A stretch of DNA of 44,708 bases from Eubacteriaceae bacterium. Lineage in GTDB: Bacteria > Bacillota > Clostridia > Eubacteriales > Garciellaceae. The notes below the pieces were generated by a model that did not search any database, was not told the DNA's origin, and saw only the letters and a program-made list of their open reading frames with translations. The stretch lies in NCBI GenBank assembly GCA_012838085.1, contig DUPX01000043.1, positions 1-44,708 on the forward strand. The letters are read 5' to 3'. Both the position numbers and the translations under genes were made by a program. The first letter of the stretch is position 1. Each line of letters begins with the position of its first letter. This document shows positions 24,248 to 26,581 of this stretch, piece after piece.

Positions 24248-24997
<750 letters not shown>

Positions 24998-24998
24998 A

Positions 24999-25556
24999 AT
25001 GATAGAAACTGTTAAAATGGAAACAGAGGAAAAGATGGCTAAATCTATTTCAAGTTTAAGGTCTGAATACGGGGCCATAAGGGCAGGTAGAGCAAATCCT
25101 AGTATTTTAGATAGGATTAATGTGGAATACTATGGAACACCTACACCATTAAATCAACTATCTAATATAAGCTCCCCCGATCCAAGAATGTTGGTCATTC
25201 AGCCTTTTGATGCATCAAGTATTGGAGATATTGAAAGGGCAATATTAAAATCTGACCTAGGTCTTAATCCTACCAATGATGGAAAAATTATAAGATTAGT
25301 CTTTCCCCAGTTAACTGAGGAAAGAAGAAAAGACTTATCTAAACTAGTAAAGAAATATGGGGAAGAATGTAAGATAGCCATTAGGAATATAAGAAGACAA
25401 TCTAATGATGAATTAAAAAAGGCAGAAAAAGAAAGTCTAATAACAGAAGATGAATTAAGAAATGGCCAAGGTGAAATACAAAAACTTACCGATGACTATA
25501 GTAAAAAAGTAGATGAGATTATTGAAGAAAAAATAGCAGAGATCATGGAGGTATAG
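24999..25556 (+). CDS. frr: Ribosome recycling factor
   Basis: A 185-residue RRF that splits the post-termination ribosome together with EF-G. The tRNA-shaped fold is marked by [20 protein letters not shown] at the N-terminus, [17 protein letters not shown] in the small domain, and the C-terminal helix [17 protein letters not shown]. Length is exactly usual. GGAGG lies before the start. The next small gene starts 3 bases after its stop. Confidence 0.98.
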
Positions 25557-25559
25557 AAC

Positions 25560-25766
25560 ATGGAAATCCAAGATCTTCTTGGATTACCTTTAATAGAAGG
25601 TATAGCATATATTAATAGCAAAGGTATATCAACAAGAGTTATTGAAACATTTTCACCATGTAAAAAAGGAATTTTTAAAGATAATAATAACTTCAATGAA
25701 CCCTATATAATCAGAATAAGGGAAATTGACAATGGGTCAATAGAATTATTAATTTCGTATTTTTAG
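25560..25766 (+). CDS. Small unassigned PASTA-like protein
   Basis: A 68-residue protein I cannot name. It has no signal peptide or membrane segment. The layout LLGLPLIEGIAYINSKGIST, then RVIETFSP, then YIIRIREIDNGSIELLISYF resembles one PASTA unit: a turn, a helix, then beta strands with a late V-I-R and a closing strand. This likeness is by eye only. It starts 3 bases after frr with GGAGG in the end of frr, and a terminator follows at once, so it is translated from the pyrH-frr mRNA. It may be a small conserved gene of this lineage. Confidence 0.7.
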   Translation: MEIQDLLGLPLIEGIAYINSKGISTRVIETFSPCKKGIFKDNNNFNEPYIIRIREIDNGSIELLISYF

Positions 25767-25770
25767 TATG

Positions 25771-25797
25771 CCCCCTGGTACTAGGGGGTTTTATTTA
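25771..25797 (+). terminator. Rho-independent terminator of pyrH-frr
   Basis: CCCCCT (25771-25776) pairs with AGGGGG (25783-25788) across a 6-base loop and is followed by TTTTATTT. It separates the small gene from uppS. Confidence 0.75.
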
Positions 25798-25813: not shown

Positions 25814-26581
25814 ATGTTTTTATTTAAAAACAAAAAAAACAAGGTTCAAACAAATGAATATAATATTGATTATGAAACACTACCTAACCATATAGCAATA
25901 ATAATGGATGGTAATGGAAGATGGGCAAAACAAAGGGGACTGCCTAGGACTGCAGGCCATCGTGCTGGTGTAGAGGCCCTTAGAGAGACTATAAAAACAA
26001 GTTCGGATATAGGAATTAAGATATTAACATTCTATGCCTTTTCCACAGAAAATTGGAAACGGCCAAAGAATGAAGTAGAGGCACTAATGAGCTTGCTGGT
26101 AGAGTATTTATATAAAGAAATACAAGAGTTAAATAAAAATAATGTAAAAATAAATACAATAGGGGATATTAATGCCCTCCCTCCAAAACCTCAAAAAGCT
26201 GTATTAGATGCAATCCAATTAACGAAAAATAATAGTGGATTAATAGTAAATATTGCATTAAACTATGGAGGTAGGGATGAGTTAATATATGCAATAAAAA
26301 ACATAGTTAATGATTGCCAAAAAGGAATATTAAAATCCCAAGATATAGATGAAAATACAATAGAAAGCTATTTATACACTTCCCAACAGGCTGACCCTGA
26401 TTTATTAATAAGAACAAGTGGAGAATTAAGACTAAGTAATTTCTTACTTTGGCAAATAGCATATACAGAGTTTTGGTTTACTGATATATTATGGCCAGAT
26501 TTTAAAAAAGAACATTTATTTCAAGCAATAGCATCTTATCAAAATAGAGATAGAAGATATGGAGGAATATCGAAAAAATAA
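25814..26581 (+). CDS. uppS: Undecaprenyl diphosphate synthase (isoprenyl transferase)
   Basis: A 255-residue cis-prenyltransferase that adds isopentenyl units to farnesyl diphosphate to make the C55 cell-wall lipid carrier. Motifs are [20 protein letters not shown] (catalytic Asp in DGNGRWA), the AFSTENW region, and [20 protein letters not shown]. Length is usual. GGAGG precedes the ATG. It leads the run uppS-cdsA-dxr-rseP, the same order as in Bacillus; the preceding terminator implies a promoter I could not place. Confidence 0.97.

Follow-up and report, generated by a model that had tools for sequence, protein, structure and literature searches.

PASTA domains are known from kinases and penicillin-binding proteins, on which they serve as extracellular sensors. 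The extracellular PASTA domains of PrkC bind muropeptides through a DAP-arginine contact (PMC3601408), and those of PknB bind lipid II (PMC6428115). Within a 44,708-nucleotide stretch of DNA from a Eubacteriaceae bacterium (the window), a small gene between frr and uppS, referred to here as X, appears to carry a stand-alone version of this fold with no export signal, at a fixed site between essential genes and in many families of the phylum. We consider X an overlooked conserved gene, and we are highly confident that it is under selection, has a PASTA-like fold, and is linked to frr.

A small gene probably coupled to frr

X begins with ATG at position 25560 and ends with a stop codon at 25764 to 25766 on the plus strand (68 codons; 25560 to 25766), and its product is a predicted soluble protein of 68 amino acids. 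The gene immediately upstream, frr (24999 to 25556, plus strand), encodes ribosome recycling factor (RRF), as assigned from its open reading frame (ORF) and an RRF family match, and its stop codon (25554 to 25556) lies 3 nt from the X start. Based on ORFs and tblastn neighbors, frr is preceded by pyrH, encoding UMP kinase (24284 to 24997, plus strand), and uppS, encoding undecaprenyl pyrophosphate synthase, follows at 25814 to 26581 on the same strand. A terminator-like hairpin, GCCCCCTGGTACTAGGGGGT, followed by a T-run, lies upstream of uppS and 3 nt past the X stop codon (25770 to 25789, plus strand). The original prediction, made from the sequence alone, had put X 3 bases past frr with a terminator right behind it, and this placement is exact. 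An ORF of this size is unlikely to occur by chance in the frr-uppS gap: among 20,000 mononucleotide shuffles of the 257-nt gap, 64 contained an ORF of at least 68 amino acids on the plus strand.

The Shine-Dalgarno motif of X, GGAGG (25547 to 25551, plus strand), is located inside the last frr codons, which encode EIMEV (ATGGAGGTATAG). This is also the commonest frr end among family loci, and the last 18 nt of frr hold a Shine-Dalgarno-like motif in 76 of the 118 loci having frr upstream. Because the ribosome binding site lies inside the end of frr, X and RRF are probably translated in a coupled manner. X would be read within a tsf-pyrH-frr block, and the strong hairpin right behind it would set it apart from uppS.

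A conserved family that stays with frr

X is a real gene and a member of a widely conserved, unnamed family. All three genomes of its GTDB family contain homologues with 43 to 48% identity, each between frr and uppS, and single-sequence searches in 67 genomes of the order gave no further homologues. Iterated profiles built from the family hits matched, at an E value of ≤1e-3, 76 of 391 genomes of the class, a tally that by our reading includes six genomes with long-frame PASTA kinases or penicillin-binding proteins plus one 229-amino-acid frame (G122, later L134), and 139 of 398 genomes of the phylum, including, again by our reading, eight genomes with such long-frame proteins. Confinement to one species, which the original prediction had named as counting against it, was not found: the gene is widespread in the phylum sample.

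Homologues were collected by sequence profile alone, and synteny played no part in the search. Nevertheless, frr was directly upstream in all 29 additional phylum loci, and in a consolidated set of 121 distinct ORFs, frr was directly upstream of 118, uppS was downstream of 113, and both flanked 111; these are fetched and mostly best-scoring loci, so the fractions are not prevalence. The three ORFs without an frr call are a true PASTA kinase (L219), a locus truncated by a contig end (L134), and one with an adjacent frr that failed the distance rule (L216). The set leaves out 23 loci from an initial, loose search by profile (L041, L043, L045 to L051, and L053 to L066), mostly weak partial matches with E values of >0.005; L041 (7.9e-4) and L043 (0.0047) are both partial matches in long frames. 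Fusion of X to another gene was considered for L211 and L216 and rejected, since the long frames there lie open in G+C-rich DNA and overlap frr.

At all seven loci where uppS is not the next gene (L121 to L124, L133, L082, and L191), X stays behind frr, and the consolidated set has no X beside uppS at a locus proven to lack frr. In two of these loci (L121 and L123), the gene next behind X, in place of uppS, is Ser/Thr protein kinase-like. In the window's order, loci that lack X continue from frr directly into uppS or rimP, and at least nine of them have uppS straight after frr. The frr-rimP loci of the order (L029 to L032, L035 to L038, and others) share a conserved hairpin, AAGAGTGGGG..CCCACTCTT, between the two genes, which looks like a leader of the rimP operon.

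Scanning named genomes with the three-member alignment gave no confirmed locus; a narrow alignment then returned five loci, all in Ruminiclostridium. The viral contigs searched held no relatives of X, and PHROGs returned a weak match to phrog_28003, a family with no assigned function (E value, 5.9e-4). We found no dedicated model for the family in the Pfam and NCBIfam libraries, no Rfam match, and no account of such a protein in the literature searched, where coverage of subscription journals was thin and absence from print is unproven. A cytoplasmic PASTA-like protein beside frr had been called unusual. This is relative: the frr-X-uppS arrangement is common, yet undescribed as far as we found.

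Purifying selection on the family

Could X instead be spurious, or an ORF in decay? Neither Pfam nor NCBIfam gave a match to the window protein alone, and dN/dS for the window's own three pairs is about 0.62 to 0.80 (nuclear counts), both of which would fit such a reading. However, these ratios are uninformative because the pairs are divergent and AT-rich, and we do not read them as pointing to relaxed selection, although they are weaker evidence of selection. By contrast, dN/dS was 0.09 to 0.46 in all 38 finite pairs among 41 family pairs with ≥60% identity, and close pairs of the family thus show purifying selection. The ratio near 1 that the original prediction had named as counting against it was not seen in these pairs. 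The window protein also scored 53.4 bits (E value, 4.8e-15) against a family profile built without its own three sequences, whereas the best of 2,000 shuffles of the protein reached 6.0 bits. Together with phylum-wide homologues in the same place, this leaves a spurious or decaying ORF very improbable indeed.

A single PASTA-like domain

The window protein alone gave nothing useful in a sequence search against solved structures. In the wider family, Pfam PASTA (PF03793) matched 15 of 31 members at an E value of ≤1 (best, 4.5e-5), and 1 of 10 further members exceeded the curated cutoff (28.4 versus 23.2 bits). The family profile ranked the PASTA domains of Staphylococcus aureus PrkC first among solved structures (E value, 3.3e-6). 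Aligned by HHalign to 34 PASTA repeats from related kinases and penicillin-binding proteins, the 116-member family gave a probability of 96.4% (P value, 1.1e-9; 56 columns) and the 31-member family gave 95.4%, each over the whole domain. The 31-member profile scored 41.5, versus a maximum of 17.3 in 200 column shuffles. The profile comparison therefore bears out the earlier guess at a PASTA-like domain for the wider family and not for the window sequence by itself, as the window's own three-member family gave a weak 3.1%. As judged from these profiles, the PASTA link of the window protein runs through the wider family.

An AlphaFold model of the window protein, built with four Ruminiclostridium homologues, has helix 11-20, strands 25-30, 48-55, and 61-67, and a short helix 3-6 (mean pLDDT, 80.8). 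In a separate model of a Ruminiclostridium homologue, helix 9-19 is followed by strands 22-29, 44-51, and 54-60 (pLDDT, 87.4), with the five models disagreeing. The best Foldseek matches of the window model were PASTA domains at E values of 0.15 or worse. In VIA-align, where a Z score of <8 is supportive and not proof, the window model matched PASTA domains with Z scores up to 6.3 over 55 to 58 residues, compared to 3.7 for unrelated inhibitors; the single non-PASTA entry among these was 8s7v_J (Z score, 6.0). For the Ruminiclostridium model, 8s7v_J came first (Z score, 6.8), with PASTA domains next (up to 5.8). The models thus show X as one PASTA-like domain, a predicted helix plus three strands with the last two joined by a shortened hairpin. 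A structure unlike PASTA, which would have spoken against the original idea of a single such domain, did not emerge, as PASTA domains make up most of the top matches among solved structures; the family profile, the member above the Pfam cutoff, and the predicted fold all support that idea.

The family strand R-V-V-R-Q aligns onto V-I-S-Q of classical PASTA repeats, and the next loop is shorter in X. Relative to kinase repeats, HHalign places a gap of about 6 residues between strands 2 and 3, so X is not of the classical full-length form. Nor is X a PASTA kinase or penicillin-binding protein, as its 68 amino acids include no attached kinase or transpeptidase domain. The lack of a membrane anchor, noted at the outset, extends to the family: none of the 116 members has a transmembrane segment (no hydrophobic 19-mer at a Kyte-Doolittle score of ≥1.6 in the cores).

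Conserved residues and a possible precursor sensor

Among 116 sequences, G8 is present in 91 (A in 18), A14 is present in 91 (G in the window), and P33 is present in 91 of 113. In strand 2, R49 is near-invariant (present in 102 of 116 and replaced by Y in the window protein), V50 is conserved, R52 is found in 85, and Q53 is the commonest residue at its position (60; the window protein has I). R49 is missing from the window's own family. Strand 2, where this family departs from the others, is the site where ligand contact might be expected. Since the window lineage has lost R49 and has I at position 53, the conserved function is doubtful in that lineage and may differ.

By analogy with known PASTA ligands, X could be a cytoplasmic sensor of the lipid carrier or peptidoglycan precursor pathway, whose PASTA-like domain would bind a precursor and tune UppS or the genes behind it. 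Such a sensor would suit the position of uppS downstream of 113 of the 121 ORFs and the strand 2 arginine, whose equivalence to the PrkC arginine is putative; muropeptides (PMC3601408) and lipid II (PMC6428115) are the ligands reported for PrkC and PknB, respectively. On the other hand, X keeps with frr and not with uppS at each of the seven loci where the two are apart, no X lies beside uppS where frr is shown to be absent, and the window's own family is without the arginine. On balance, we regard a precursor sensor as unlikely.

The hairpin and the supply of uppS

Hairpins just behind stop codons are common at operon ends. A terminator-like hairpin with a T-run coincided with the X stop codon or closely followed it in 48 of 70 family loci, compared to 22 of 350 mononucleotide-shuffled regions, and its score fell under the threshold in the other 22 loci. 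In Ruminiclostridium, the last X codons (CKPL plus the stop) double as the 5' arm of the hairpin. At L177 to L180, L089, L092, and L108 to L112, this arm (AACCCCTCTAA) holds the codons for the conserved C-terminal CKPL and the stop. As these codons form the hairpin arm, conservation of CKPL may serve the RNA rather than the protein. The hairpin and the uppS start of the window are only about 25 nt apart, a distance too short for a promoter; therefore, expression of uppS and of the genes after it must come from read-through or from a promoter further upstream.

These features raise the prospect that X acts mainly in cis, with translation up to the hairpin governing read-through into uppS and the protein mattering less. 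The frequency of the hairpin, the CKPL-stop arm, and the missing room for a promoter are all in keeping with such a device. Yet conservation is at the protein level, with a folded domain in many families, the hairpin falls short in 22 of 70 loci, there is no Rfam match, and such hairpins are ordinary at operon ends. A cis-acting role thus seems quite improbable. A transcription attenuation leader peptide was also considered and rejected given the domain-level protein conservation across many families.

A tentative link to ribosome recycling

Our best overall explanation combines the identity of X given above with a cytoplasmic, RRF-linked adaptor, and we hold it tentatively, at somewhat less than an even chance. 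X would stay in the cytoplasm and would be a partner-binding adaptor coproduced with RRF, acting on ribosome recycling or an RRF-dependent step and not as an extracellular cell wall sensor. The persistence of X with frr at seven of seven loci where uppS is apart, together with a ribosome binding site inside frr, favors a role tied to RRF. However, an operon shared with frr can arise from coupling alone, which counts against such a role, and many genomes with frr have no X, so RRF does not need X. The net charge of −2 of the window protein does not suggest direct RNA binding. Taken by itself, the RRF-linked role, drawn from gene order and sequence, is possible and somewhat doubtful.

More broadly, a branch of the PASTA fold may have become a stand-alone, cytoplasmic protein in many anaerobic Bacillota, made with ribosome recycling factor and working at the junction of translation and cell wall lipid supply, although we put this forward with considerable reserve. 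If true, a fold otherwise associated with sensing the cell wall would work inside the cell. X offers a direct way to test for further capabilities of the PASTA fold and for a possible coordination between ribosome recycling and lipid carrier synthesis.

Comparison with known systems

The closest described relatives are the PASTA domains (PF03793) of Ser/Thr kinases (PrkC, StkP, and PknB) and penicillin-binding proteins, which share with X a helix plus three strands and the N-terminal motif VPDVxG..LEEA..LL..G. Unlike these, X is a lone domain behind frr that is attached to neither a kinase nor a transpeptidase, lacks a membrane anchor, and has a shortened strand 2-strand 3 hairpin. True PASTA repeats occur in the same cell as X: the window genome encodes its own PASTA kinase and PASTA penicillin-binding protein (contigs C11 and C73), which, in contrast to X, are long and carry several repeats each (open frames of 644 and 733 amino acids). 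A search of this genome gave no small stand-alone PASTA-like domain other than X.

Outside of PASTA proteins, both X models match chain J of PDB entry 8s7v (residues about 308 to 368) in the methyl-coenzyme M reductase activation complex, with Z scores of 6.0 and 6.8, although this is a domain within a 499-residue protein of another system. It resembles the two models as well as PASTA does, and could be another use of the fold away from the wall. For X, the fold is a known one, PASTA, and it is the setting that is new.
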